From assembly GCA_947569705.1 (NCBI GenBank), contig CANOSP010000014.1, forward strand, positions 1-50,486: a DNA stretch of 50,486 bases, read 5' to 3'. The translations under genes and the position numbers were made by a program. The notes beneath the pieces are model-generated. The model was given only the letters and a program-made list of their open reading frames with translations. It searched no databases and was not told where the DNA came from. The stretch's first letter is position 1, and each line of letters opens with the position of its first letter. This document shows positions 42,089-44,864 of the stretch, piece by piece. The stretch is from an uncultured Erysipelotrichaceae bacterium. GTDB taxonomy: Bacteria; Bacillota_I; Bacilli_A; Erysipelotrichales; Erysipelotrichaceae.

Positions 42089-42597
42089 TTTCTTTTCTCC
42101 TTCACTTTAACTTCCGCATACCTTACGCCGATTACCTCTGATTCAGCTTCTGTACCGACAAACATATCAATGATGTTGCCTTTGATTGTACCGCCTGTGT
42201 CCTCAGCTATGTACTCTTTGCCGTCTATCAGCACTGTACTTCCTAGCGGAATCACTTCCGGATCAACTGCTATTGTCCTGCCGATTTCCGGAACGGTGCC
42301 GGTATATGTAAGTCCTGTACAGCCTTCGCAATCGGCTCCGTATGCGGTGATTTTGAACACCCCTAGAGATGTTCATTTGACTTCTTTAAGCTCCTTTACC
42401 TGAGTGTTTAACTGTTCGATTTCAAGATTCTTATCGACGATAACTTGTTCCATTTGTTCAACGATTTTCTGTTCAGCTATGTAATTGTCGTTCAGTTTGT
42501 TCCACTCTGATGTATGGTGGTCGCTCCCCCATTTCATCCATAGGCAGCATATAACAAACGTTAAGATGCAACACGCTTTCCACTGGTTTCTATTCAT
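42085..42597 (-). pseudogene. 3D-domain (RlpA-like) protein split by an in-frame TGA
   Basis: The first part (from 42597) has a membrane segment (WKACCILTFVICCLWMKWG) and a coiled coil (EQVIVDKNLEIEQLNTQVKE), ending KEVK then TGA (42375-42373). The same frame continues TSLGVFKITAYGADCEGCTG and the full 3D domain: TIAVDPEVIPLGSTVLIDGK, then AEDTGGTIKGNIIDMFV. Normal 3D proteins of phages have membrane anchor, coiled coil and 3D domain in one chain, so this looks like one gene with a nonsense codon. The GTG at 42360 has no spaced ribosome site. It would be a cell-wall glycan-cleaving or entry-related enzyme. Confidence 0.75.
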
Positions 42598-42788
42598 TTT
42601 ATTTTCTCCTCCTTACCTGTAAATCCTTCGCATAAGCCACTGGGCTTCACGTTTTTTAAACGCTTGAAGCCGCAATGCCCCGCGAAACATGGTCTATAAT
42701 GACCGCATGTGTATATGTAATGCTGCATATAATACACGCAGTTTGCACATGATTCTTTTTCGACCATGCCCTGAATAAAGTTGTACAT
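42594..42788 (-). CDS. Small Cys-rich early protein
   Basis: 64 residues; ATG after AGGAGGTTTTTTAT. Seven cysteines: ESCANCVYYMQHYIYTCGHY, then CFAGHCGFKR and GLCEGF, probably zinc-binding. It is the first gene of the early operon, and its ribosome site lies inside a terminator-like hairpin (42789-42838). Function unknown. Confidence 0.65.
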   Translation of the reverse strand: MYNFIQGMVEKESCANCVYYMQHYIYTCGHYRPCFAGHCGFKRLKNVKPSGLCEGFTGKEEKIK

Positions 42789-42838
42789 ATAAAAAACCTC
42801 CTGTTTCTATTTCATTGCGAAAGAACTCAAAGAGGTTG
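42789..42838 (-). promoter_or_regulatory. Leader hairpin containing the ribosome site, duplicated at 43210-43257
   Basis: Minus strand: AACCTC (42837-42832) can pair with GAGGTT (42801-42796), followed by TTTTAT. The 3' arm is the AGGAGG ribosome site of the 42788 gene. So pairing would both hide that site and form a terminator. The same ~50 nt, with seven differences, recur downstream of the second regulator gene. Confidence 0.6.
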
Positions 42839-42864
42839 TTTTAACTACACTAAGATGTTATAAT
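42836..42864 (+). promoter_or_regulatory. Promoter of candidate small RNA 1
   Basis: TTGTTT (42836-42841), 17 nt, TATAAT (42859-42864) on the plus strand, against the direction of the early operon. Confidence 0.6.
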
Positions 42865-42870
42865 TTCCGT

Positions 42871-42950
42871 GTAATCCTTAACCTCGTTGAGGGTTGCTGT
42901 TTATGGCAAGTGCCTTTCTGTCCGTCAAAACTGAAGCACTTGCCTTTTCT
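42871..42950 (+). ncRNA. Candidate small antisense RNA 1 (module 1)
   Basis: Predicted transcript of ~80 nt from the promoter at 42836-42864. It ends in a strong hairpin, GGCAAGTGC (42905-42913) with GCACTTGCC (42936-42944), followed by TTTTCTTATTT. The loop starts with CTTTCTGTCCGT, which is complementary to the first 12 nt of the predicted mRNA of the RHH gene at 42950-43117 and equals its operator half-site at 43132-43143. It has no ribosome site or convincing frame. The RNA itself is a prediction. Confidence 0.6.
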
Positions 42951-43117
42951 TATTTGAGTTTCTCTAAAGCCATTCTTATAATACTGGCTCTATCCAATTT
43001 GTACCTTTTAGTTAAAGTGTCTAATTCTTTTAATTCTTTATCACTAAAACGTACCTCAACTCGTTTATTTCTTGGATTTTCGACTTTAGGTCTGCCCATT
43101 TTTTTTGTTTCGGACAT
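42950..43117 (-). CDS. Ribbon-helix-helix (CopG-like) regulator 1
   Basis: 55 residues; ATG after AAAGGAGG. A GRP-type basic arm (KKMGRPKVENPRNKR) precedes the RHH: VEVRFSDKELKELDTLTKRY, then KLDRASIIRMALEKL. RHH dimers bind short inverted repeats. Its promoter contains such a repeat (43132-43175), so autorepression is likely. Its 3' end converges with candidate small RNA 1. Paralogue of regulator 2 at 43376. Confidence 0.82.
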   Translation of the reverse strand: MSETKKMGRPKVENPRNKRVEVRFSDKELKELDTLTKRYKLDRASIIRMALEKLK

Positions 43118-43131
43118 ATTCCTCCTTTCTA

Positions 43132-43179
43132 CTTTCTGTCCGTATCATAAGTATACTATTAAGCCGTACGGAAAGTCAA
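43132..43179 (-). promoter_or_regulatory. Promoter/operator of RHH regulator 1
   Basis: Minus strand TTGACT (43179-43174), 18 nt, TATACT (43155-43150). Half-sites CTTTCTGTCCGT (43132-43143) and, inverted, CCGTACGGAAAG (43164-43175) flank the -10 and overlap the -35. The predicted mRNA starts at about 43143, inside the first half-site. Confidence 0.75.
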
Positions 43180-43207
43180 GGTATTTTTTGGAAATTAACA
43201 TCTTAGG

Positions 43208-43259
43208 TTATAAAAAACCTCCTGTTTCTATTTCGTTGCGAAATCTACAAGAGGTTGTG
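43208..43259 (-). terminator. Second copy of the leader hairpin, here without a gene
   Basis: Minus strand AACCTCTTG...AGGAGGTTTTTTATAA repeats the leader at 42789-42838, with an inner TTTCG-CAA-CGAAA stem. No start codon follows at the right distance, so it probably acts as terminator of the RHH 2 transcript. Confidence 0.6.
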
Positions 43260-43265
43260 CCTATA

Positions 43266-43294
43266 TTGAAAATATATTGTATTTCTGATACAAT
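43266..43294 (+). promoter_or_regulatory. Promoter of candidate small RNA 2
   Basis: TTGAAA (43266-43271), 17 nt, TACAAT (43289-43294). Confidence 0.7.
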
Positions 43295-43300
43295 ACTGGT

Positions 43301-43380
43301 GCAATCTCTTGTAGGTTGTGTGTTGGGTAACCGTCTTACGTTCGACCAAAAACTTACACGGTTGCCCACTTTCTTTTATT
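43301..43380 (+). ncRNA. Candidate small antisense RNA 2 (module 2)
   Basis: Predicted ~80-nt transcript ending in GGGTAACCGT (43325-43334) paired with ACGGTTGCCC (43358-43367), then ACTTTCTTTTATTT. The loop starts CTTACGTTCGAC. Eleven of those bases complement the predicted 5' end of the RHH 2 mRNA and equal its operator half-site (43574-43584). The organisation is the same as in module 1 with a different sequence. Confidence 0.6.
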
Positions 43381-43558
43381 TAATAAATTCTATGATGGCT
43401 TTTCTTATTGCATCTGATTTAGATAAGCCTTTTTTTTGACAATATTCATTTAATTTATCCAAAATATCATCATCTAGCCTTATCCCAATGCGTGTATCCT
43501 TTTTTTTCATTCCTGTTAAAGGTCTACCCATCTTTTTTTTATCGTCGTTAGTAGCCAT
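43376..43558 (-). CDS. Ribbon-helix-helix (CopG-like) regulator 2
   Basis: 60 residues; ATG after GGAGGAAAG. MATNDDKKKMGRPLTGMKKK is followed by the RHH core: TRIGIRLDDDILDKLNEYCQ, then KKGLSKSDAIRKAIIEFIK. Paralogue of regulator 1, sharing the KKMGRP arm. Its operator sequence differs from that of regulator 1, so the two should be specific for their own sites. Confidence 0.85.
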   Translation of the reverse strand: MATNDDKKKMGRPLTGMKKKDTRIGIRLDDDILDKLNEYCQKKGLSKSDAIRKAIIEFIK

Positions 43559-43573
43559 CTTTCCTCCTTCCTA

Positions 43574-43619
43574 TTACGTTCGACATAAGTATTGTACACT
43601 TTTGTTCGACGTAAGTCAA
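43574..43619 (-). promoter_or_regulatory. Promoter/operator of RHH regulator 2
   Basis: Minus strand TTGACT (43619-43614), 17 nt, TACAAT (43596-43591). Half-sites TTACGTTCGAC (43574-43584) and inverted GTTCGACGTAAG (43604-43615). The mRNA should start at about 43584. Confidence 0.75.
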
Positions 43620-43730: not shown

Positions 43731-43919
43731 ATGCCAATGGCGTCTAAGGATATGGAAAAACTTATCCTTGCTCATGGTTGGGTGTTGAAGAATCAAGTAG
43801 GTTCTCACAGACATTACATACACCCTACCAAACGCGGAAAGGTTACCATTCCTTTTCATTCAAAAGACTTGAATCGGAAAACGGAACTTTCCATCTTGAA
43901 GCAGGCGGGGCTTAAATAA
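43731..43919 (+). CDS. hicA: HicA-type mRNA interferase toxin
   Basis: 62 residues from the ATG at 43731 (AGGAGG upstream). The dsRBD-like fold is visible: MEKLILAHGWVLKNQVGSHR with catalytic His in SHRHYIHPTKRGKVTIPFH, then DLNRKTELSILKQAGL. It cleaves mRNA when free of HicB, whose gene follows 38 nt later. Confidence 0.95.
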   Translation: MPMASKDMEKLILAHGWVLKNQVGSHRHYIHPTKRGKVTIPFHSKDLNRKTELSILKQAGLK

Positions 43920-43957
43920 GCCCTGCTAACGCTTCTCTTAAATAAGGAGGTATATAT

Positions 43958-44380
43958 ATGCTGTCTGCTTATCCCGCTATTTTCTACAAGGAAGAAAACG
44001 GATATTCTGTTGTCTTTCCTGACCTTAACTATTTAGCCACTGACGGAGAAACCTTAGAGCAAGCTCTTGCCATGTCTGTTGATTGTTTAGCTGGTTATTT
44101 ATATTCAGCTAAACTGGACAAAGAAGAAGTTCCTACACCCTCTGACCTTAAAGCTATTGACCCTTTAAAAGTAGCCAGTGAGCTTGATACAGAGGCGGGG
44201 GAGTACTTCGTCAATATCGTTACAGTTGATGTCGATGAATATGCAAAGGTACACTTCAACAAGTCAATCAAGAAAACATTAAGCATTCCTGAATGGCTCA
44301 ATCGTGAGGCTTTAGACAAAGGCATTAACTTCTCACAAGTATTGCAAGAGGCTTTAGTTGCTAAACTTCGTTCCCTTTAA
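43958..44380 (+). CDS. hicB: HicB-type antitoxin
   Basis: 140 residues. The N-terminal half is the degenerate RNase H-like HicB domain (YPAIFYKEENGYSVVFPDLN, YLATDGETLEQALAMSVDCL). The C-terminal part is an RHH (KKTLSIPEWLNREALDKGIN, FSQVLQEALVAKL) that should bind the ATACGTAT sites. It neutralises HicA. Confidence 0.95.
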   Translation: MLSAYPAIFYKEENGYSVVFPDLNYLATDGETLEQALAMSVDCLAGYLYSAKLDKEEVPTPSDLKAIDPLKVASELDTEAGEYFVNIVTVDVDEYAKVHFNKSIKKTLSIPEWLNREALDKGINFSQVLQEALVAKLRSL

Positions 44381-44510: not shown

Positions 44511-44864
44511 TTAGTCAGGGTTGACATCCTTTTCTTTTGCCTTATACTCATTGATAATTTTACCGATAAACTCAGAACGGCTCATATTTTCGTTCAGCCT
44601 TAGCACATCCAGTTGCGCTAATGTCTGAGCATCTAATACCAATCCCCTGTACACATCTTCACCGATCCATTCCTCGATCCATACGTAGGGGATGATTTTT
44701 TTAGTTTTGCAGGGTAACGGAATGTTAGGACGTTTCTTCTCCCATGCAGCTAACAAATCATCTCGCCAACCATATGCTGTCTCTCTTCCGATTTTATTAA
44801 CAGGATTAACTTCGTTCCACAGTTGTACAATTTCCTCTGCGTTTACGAATCTTGCAATAGGCAT
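44511..44864 (-). CDS. Putative phage DNA-binding regulator or excisionase-like protein
   Basis: 117 residues. The N-terminus (ARFVNAEEIVQLWNEVNPVN) resembles MerR/AlpA-type winged helix proteins, with TAYGWRDDLLAAWEKKRPNI next. The C-terminus LAQLDVLRLNENMSRSEFIG looks like an RHH. The combination suggests a regulator, with excisionase as an alternative, since no other excisionase candidate is seen. It is divergent from the DUF4145 gene across an operator-like inverted repeat. Confidence 0.5.
   Translation of the reverse strand: MPIARFVNAEEIVQLWNEVNPVNKIGRETAYGWRDDLLAAWEKKRPNIPLPCKTKKIIPYVWIEEWIGEDVYRGLVLDAQTLAQLDVLRLNENMSRSEFIGKIINEYKAKEKDVNPD

Follow-up and report, generated by a model that had tools for sequence, protein, structure and literature searches.

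Two RHH genes at the head of a prophage early operon are each faced by a predicted antisense RNA gene

We analysed a stretch of 50,486 bases, termed the window, most of which is a prophage with tape measure, terminase and integrase genes. The early operon of this prophage is found on the minus strand and includes RecE-, RecT-, RusA- and DnaD-like genes. Two modules precede this operon and separate it from a hicAB pair, a position at its head that is in line with the early-gene switch that a first-pass annotation of the sequence had proposed. Each module consists of an RHH gene on the minus strand that is faced by a predicted RNA gene on the plus strand.

Both RHH genes encode CopG-type regulators. 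RHH1 (42950-43117, 55 aa) matches the transcriptional repressor profile phrog_876 (E=4e-11) and RHH_1 (E=0.0028, which is under the Pfam cut-off), and RHH2 (43376-43558, 60 aa) matches RHH_1 over the cut-off (E=6.7e-9) as well as phrog_876 (E=1.4e-13). Moreover, the profile of the RHH group matches the CopG structure 1b01 (E=0.002). A third RHH-type protein of 117 aa with a weak phrog_876 match is encoded near the modules on the minus strand (44511-44864). The predicted promoter of RHH1 is TTGACT-18-TATACT (43150-43179), and its mRNA is predicted to begin with ACGGACAGAAAG (43132-43143), which overlaps an operator-like repeat. For RHH2, the promoter is TTGACT-17-TACAAT with the direct repeat ACTTAYGTCGAAC (43591-43619), and the predicted mRNA 5' end is GTCGAACGTAAT (43573-43584), all on the minus strand.

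The first gene of the early operon (minus strand, 42594-42788) is an ORF for a cysteine-rich protein of 64 aa, which begins directly after the last element of module 1 and is followed by the RecE, RecT, RusA and DnaD genes. No credible separate minus-strand promoter for the early operon was found between RHH1 and 42788, and the RHH1 promoter is therefore likely to drive the early operon as well. A small Cys-rich first gene after the module is common to three loci (window 42594-42788, L071 1933-2142 and L094); no family was found for this protein. On the other side, a hicAB toxin-antitoxin pair is found directly beyond the tandem modules both in the window (43734-44380) and in Amedibacillus dolichus (L037 7238-7875).

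The plus-strand units run convergently with the RHH genes and have the promoters and hairpin terminators that the first-pass annotation had given them. The promoter of the first RNA, sRNA1, consists of TTGTTT (42836-42841), a spacer of 17 nt and TATAAT (42859-42864), and that of sRNA2 of TTGAAA (43266-43271), 17 nt and TACAAT (43289-43294). The predicted sRNA1 of about 80-85 nt (42871-42953, both ends approximate) would form a 5' hairpin followed by a terminator hairpin (42905-42944) made of GGCAAGTGC, a 22-nt loop and GCACTTGCC, then TTTTC; the T run overlaps the RHH1 stop codon. The predicted sRNA2 would extend from about 43301 to 43378, and its terminator hairpin (43324-43368) is made of TGGGTAACCGT, a 23-nt loop and ACGGTTGCCCA, then CTTTC. 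A reading of the hairpins as bidirectional terminators was rejected, since no T run comes after them on the RHH strand.

The terminator loop of each RNA matches the start of the facing mRNA

The 50,486-base window has exactly two copies of the word CTTTCTGTCCGT, one in the sRNA1 loop (42914-42925) and one at the start of the RHH1 mRNA (43132-43143). Likewise, CTTACGTTCGAC is found in the sRNA2 loop (43335-43346), with an 11/12 copy at the start of the RHH2 mRNA (43573-43584); the window holds no other exact copies of the loop or start words. The words are direct repeats that flank each RHH gene, with 12/12 identity in module 1 and 11/12 in module 2. The loop of sRNA1 is the complement of positions +1 to +12 of the RHH1 mRNA and that of sRNA2 complements the RHH2 mRNA 5' end at 11 of 12 positions, just as had been noted earlier. 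In both modules the first matched base is the predicted +1 of the RHH transcript, the seventh nucleotide after the -10 element. When the sequence of module 1 is shuffled, the longest repeat between the 75-nt leader and the 150 nt downstream averages 6.9, and none of 100 shuffles reaches 12. Moreover, the naive odds that a 12-mer from one fixed place lands in a 22-nt loop are about 1e-6 per module. The loop/start match is well beyond chance. The first-pass annotation had also equated each loop with the operator half-site of its own regulator. The identity in sequence is true, but it is the same fact as the match to the mRNA start, because the operator half-site sits on +1.

Convergent RNAs, and a repeat that links the 5' end of one RNA to the other RNA, would also fit a type I toxin-antitoxin locus like par of pAD1. 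We consider this hardly credible, since the protein is an RHH regulator and not a small hydrophobic Fst-like toxin, and since an operon follows.

Related modules keep the match with different codes

Relatives were collected by single-protein and profile searches with the RHH proteins, and each locus was then scanned. Ten modules have a loop equal to the mRNA 5' end, and between them they use seven codes. They are the two modules of the window (m1 and m2), AdolL and AdolR (both L037), AdolC3 (L070), G150 (L032), G061 (L072), G063 (L071), V094 (viral contig L094) and G474 (L078, from a different family). G061 and G063 are Erysipelotrichaceae, and G099 is A. dolichus DSM 3991, and by these named relatives the window, too, is assigned to the Erysipelotrichaceae; AdolL and AdolR stand in tandem and are followed by hicAB, the same order as in the window. 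The seven codes are ACGGACAGAAAG; GTCGAACGTAA / GTCGAACGAG; GCCAAATAGTCA / GCCAAATAGTA; GGC(g)ACTAAGG, with one bulged base; CCGACGAACA; GGCAAGAAGT; and GACGAACGTAAT. Loci from the same phage were not counted separately (L039, L087, L096 and L098 for the A. dolichus locus, L086/L097 for G061), and two further duplicates were left out (L103, which is AdolC3, and L095, which is nearly the same as L094).

Within these ten modules, which come mostly from one bacterial family, a loop matches its own mRNA start over 8-12 nt, compared to a mean of 4.6 nt for unlike pairs. The sole high cross value, 11 nt, is that of the m2 leader against the G474 loop, two codes that are closely similar. The promoter of G474 is uncertain, and the script, misled by a wrong promoter call, gave its own pair a value of 5; the actual match is 12 nt. 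Between close relatives the loop changes along with the leader, for example from TGAC in AdolL to TTAC/ATAC in G061, and from GTAA in m2 to GAG in AdolC3. Conversely, the terminator stem of G063 differs from that of module 1 while the loop code is the same, so a general lack of change in the region does not account for the conserved code. The earlier observation that the match is kept although the sequences differ is borne out by the relatives, the match being found in ten modules and with seven codes.

Several candidates were rejected. The module of G064 (L046/L073) is decayed: its RHH gene is frameshifted, its leader is disrupted and its loop has no match, while pairing arms of the kind described below (A and B) are still visible. 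G120 (L034) has the hairpin but a match of only 6 nt, and L047 (G101) and L102/L104/L105 are without the module layout. In the loop of G150 (L032) a second word, ACTTACTT, is complementary to AAGTAAGT, which is found shortly before the RHH ribosome site; the order is wrong for a single continuous duplex. As to the searches, no full-length DNA relative of the region was found in phages or in 60 related genomes, only short pieces at chance level. First scans of viral contigs with RHH1 or RHH2 alone gave no matches, a profile search of genome contigs returned only already-known members and unrelated RHH genes, and a plasmid search with the A. dolichus RHH protein found no relatives.

The loop follows the mRNA start rather than the operator

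We compared the position of the match with that of the likely operator, for which we took the best repeat of each RHH promoter. Nine modules have a clear promoter, and in every one of them the match starts at nearly the same distance from the -10 element (6, 6, 6, 7, 7, 7, 7, 7 and 8 nt after it, the distance in AdolR being counted from the GGC before the bulge). The operator-like repeat, with positions counted from 0 at the first matched base, is found at -10..+3 in G063, at -6..+6 in m2 and AdolC3, at +1..+11 in G061, at +2..+15 in G150 and at +10..+20 in AdolR, the right module of A. dolichus. Because the repeat shifts relative to +1 while the start of the match stays fixed, the loop tracks the predicted mRNA 5' end, and its identity with the operator mostly follows from the overlap of the operator with +1.

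More distant relatives from Streptococcus, Clostridioides and Fusobacterium also have an operator-like repeat that overlaps +1. It is a near-perfect inverted repeat (e.g. TGTCTGACAAGAAT / ATTGTTGTCAGACA) and the loop is unlike it; the loop/start match is 3-6 nt, which is background. The loop/5'-end match is absent outside one group of modules. The first-pass annotation had suggested that protein and RNA read the same short code, which co-variation of loop and operator in related phages should reveal. In the matched group it is the loop and the mRNA 5' end that co-vary, but loop and operator vary independently, and we rejected a code shared by design as the main explanation.

A related possibility is that the RHH protein has a third DNA operator in the loop sequence, used for looping or for control of the convergent RNA, with the pairing between RNAs being incidental. 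The loop code does overlap the operator-like repeat in m1, m2, G063, AdolC3, G061 and G150. However, the stretch in common begins at the transcription start, and in m2, AdolC3 and G063 the upstream portion of the repeat is left out, the loop match of AdolR covers about +1..+11 although its repeat is at +10..+20, and distant modules keep the operator-like repeat without any loop match. We therefore regard a third operator as distinctly unlikely.

The same layout is found in distant phages

The layout is shared by distant RHH relatives, both in phages (loci L108-L119) and in viral contigs. We scored 26 modules from Erysipelotrichaceae, Streptococcus phages and satellites, Clostridioides and Fusobacterium. 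All 26 have a hairpin with a T run at the RHH stop codon, on the strand opposite to the RHH gene (the G150 terminator was read by eye, as the script had picked another hairpin), and all 26 have a sigma-70-like antisense promoter whose -10 element ends 66-85 nt away. A promoter with at least 9/12 matches at 60-90 nt from the stop codon is present in 26/26 modules, compared to 4/89 ORFs of the window and 2/13 other RHH-like loci; the window's own modules fall in the surroundings of the 89 control ORFs only through chance overlap. Hairpin, promoter and the A:B pairing described below are found together in 19/26 modules and in none of the 102 controls. This set of features gains support from L078, a control locus that scored unexpectedly and proved to be the tenth matched module, G474, recognised by its loop. 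The predicted convergent antisense RNA appears to be under selection, in line with the function for which the first-pass annotation had argued from two modules.

The motif UUGGCG, or its complement CGCCAA, is found in 13 of 25 loops, on either strand. Its strand varies among relatives (L034 (G120), L072, L108 and L111-L115): some carry UUGGCG on the strand of the sRNA, others on that of the mRNA, and these flips look like inversions of the loop between the stem arms. UUGGCG is the recognition-loop motif of ColIb-P9 Inc RNA, a known antisense kissing motif (Asano et al. 1998, as cited in PMC4374534 and PMC10724649). To that extent the loops resemble those of the IncI/IncFII antisense RNAs, which differ in that they belong to enterobacterial plasmid replication genes and involve no RHH protein. 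At the gathering score, Rfam gave no match in the window and no match to an antisense RNA in 18 related loci. A skipping-rope RNA (RF02924) was matched at L116 333-412, upstream of the RHH module, in an unverified gut phage record.

Competing pairings form a candidate attenuator ahead of the early operon

On the RHH strand, 3' of the gene, each module has arms that can pair in alternative ways. Arm A is covered by the antisense RNA, arm B is beyond the antisense promoter and arm C precedes the next gene. In module 1, arm A (CTCAACGAGGTT, 42880-42891, in the part covered by the 5' hairpin of sRNA1) could pair with arm B (AACCTCTTTGAG, 42826-42837) as an antiterminator, and B could instead pair with arm C (CAGGAGGTT and a U run, 42791-42803), which is both the 3' arm of a B:C terminator and the Shine-Dalgarno sequence of the next gene. 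A:B has 11/12 pairs by eye (z=-3.1), and B:C has a z of -2.6. The arms of module 2, likewise on the minus strand, are A (CTACAAGAGATT, 43303-43314), B (AACCTCTTGTAG, 43245-43256; A:B z=-4.3) and C (CAGGAGGTTTTTTAT, 43211-43224). Arm C and the adjoining stretch are near-identical in the two modules (42790-42821 and 43211-43242), the rest of which has diverged, and this suggests gene conversion or strong constraint. In module 2, this ribosome-site-like stretch is found without a gene after it.

The A:B pairing beats shuffled B arms in 26/26 modules (duplex z -1.5 to -7.5), and the z of B:C is mostly -2 to -5.6 where the next gene adjoins. Many arm assignments were read by eye, and in a few modules, e.g. 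V094, G120 and Cdif109, the scan chose an implausible arm. Changes in the arms are compensated: AACCUC/GAGGUU in module 1 is AGCCUC/GAGGCU in G063, and further pairs are CCUCUUAU/AUAGGAGG in G061 and AACACUUCUUUU/AAAAGGAGUGUU in Jav589. The B:C pairing is weak in Clostridioides, and no terminator-like C arm was found in Fus101, MT116 and Fn119. Thus, the elements known from pT181 and pIP501, an antisense RNA complementary to the antiterminator arm and a competing terminator, are seen as A:B in all 26 modules and as B:C in most. The A:B symmetry could in part be a protein site, as A:B also flanks the sRNA promoter.

Folding was computed with the antisense-covered part, arm A, either free or blocked. 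Covering A raises the predicted probability of B:C from 0.20 to 0.89 in m1, from 0.47 to 0.97 in m2, from 0.11 to 0.90 in AdolL, from 0.01 to 0.93 in AdolC3, from 0.28 to 0.99 in Jav518 and from 0.18 to 0.96 in LT110. B:C is favoured at equilibrium even with A free in G150, G063 and several Streptococcus modules, where an on/off switch would therefore need co-transcriptional folding. The candidate A:B/B:C attenuator, which was absent from the first-pass annotation, would give the predicted RNA a target before the early operon.

The antisense RNA might instead mainly keep RHH and the next gene from being translated, in the style of RNAII of pMV158, which inhibits repB translation (PMC4485353), or trigger decay by RNase III. 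Consistent with such a role, arm C doubles as the Shine-Dalgarno sequence for the following gene in the window, AdolL, G061, Jav589 and Jav570, and the site where the loop would pair is a short way 5' of the RHH ribosome site. However, arm C is followed by U runs, the terminator of Jav518, Jav430, Jav747, Jav21 and LT110 is a plain one that stands apart from any ribosome site, and module 2 and AdolR retain B:C and the U run without a gene directly after. On balance we see translational control or decay, in place of attenuation, as a possible but rather doubtful main function. Finally, the plus-strand units could be promoters that act by transcriptional interference, or insulating terminators, with an inert RNA. 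Convergent promoters can interfere mutually, but the co-variation of loop and 5' end, the competition of A:B with B:C and the conserved kissing motif would then be unexpected, and we hold this to be highly improbable.

A proposed two-layer off-switch and its relation to known systems

Taken together, the parts of the modules, their conservation, the co-variation of loop and 5' end and the competing pairings can be read directly from the sequence. They make it probable, in our estimate, that the modules are two-layer off-switches in which RHH autorepression is combined with antisense-RNA attenuation of the phage early operon. As the first gene of the operon, RHH would repress its own promoter through a paired site at about -35 to +1, as CopG does. 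The antisense RNA would start from its own promoter just past the RHH gene, run against RHH and pair with the same transcript. A:B would act as the antiterminator and B:C as a terminator with a U run, and the 3' arm of this terminator frequently doubles as the ribosome site for the gene that follows. Being exactly complementary to A, the RNA would on binding free B for C and so stop transcription or translation of the early genes. The hairpin with the terminator loop would be the recognition element, with UUGGCG as the kissing motif in many phages. In the lineage of the window, the loop would be tuned to the first 10-12 nt of the mRNA, an extra contact that may catch the emerging transcript; this contact may speed capture, block RHH translation, or both. 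Transcription of the RNAs, binding, repression and a role in lysogeny or immunity are what we infer from these elements.

The first-pass analogy to CopG and pMV158 holds in gene order, which is RHH gene, convergent antisense RNA and next operon gene in both cases. In pMV158, copG is followed by rnaII, which is convergent and located in the gap between copG and repB, and by repB (PMC4485353). Our search, run on pMV158 (L120), found the antisense promoter 50 nt from the copG stop codon. In both systems the gene of an RHH autorepressor (presumed in the phage modules) comes first, an antisense gene, predicted in the phage modules, is found right after its stop codon on the other strand, and then comes the target gene. 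However, RNAII is 48 nt long and acts on repB translation, whereas the predicted phage RNA is about 80-85 nt long, and the phage modules have the candidate A:B/B:C attenuator, tandem copies and, in one group, the 5'-end-matched loop. They also precede phage early genes (Cys-rich, then RecE, RecT, RusA and DnaD-like) and no rolling-circle rep gene. Since no rep gene follows, the phage module is not a member of a plasmid replicon family.

We propose that the module is like pMV158 in layout and like pIP501/pT181 in outcome. In pIP501 and pT181, antisense pairing pushes the nascent leader into a terminator, as is proposed here, and pIP501 also has a small repressor, CopR. In these plasmids, however, the attenuator is in the rep leader and the repressor gene is elsewhere, whereas here RHH is in the same transcript, 5' of the attenuator. 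Among phages, P22 immI is an immunity region that also combines an antisense RNA, sar, with RHH repressors, Arc and Mnt, but sar blocks ant translation, and we know of neither a loop matched to the mRNA 5' end nor an attenuator of such layout there. The c4 RNA of P1/P7 and the CI RNA of P4 are phage-made antisense RNAs that shut the early operon and set the immunity type. They come from a same-strand leader, whereas the module has a separate, convergent RNA gene (predicted). In the open-access literature, we found no paper on RHH proteins with antisense-RNA attenuators in phages.

These comparisons suggest that two-layer control, best known from small plasmids that combine CopG with an antisense RNA, is also found at the entrances of early operons in many temperate phages, and in satellite phages, from Bacillota and fusobacteria. 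The module would be a concrete mechanism for keeping prophage early genes off, and possibly for superinfection immunity. What is new in the Erysipelotrichaceae branch is an antisense RNA predicted to read the first dozen nucleotides of its target. More tentatively, and with the odds somewhat against it, the loop/5'-end code may be an RNA immunity type: the RNA of a resident prophage would recognise the very first nucleotides of the early transcript that a related phage makes on entry, and abort it. The codes would diversify like plasmid incompatibility groups and drag the operators along, because the operator sits on +1. If so, a prophage with tandem modules of unlike codes would have two immunity types. 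The at least seven naturally matched codes could also serve as ready-made orthogonal pairs. In the phages concerned, no RNA is annotated in these gaps. In the public record of Streptococcus phage Javan589 the RHH gene, too, is unannotated (L113 589-753), and the whole module is present.
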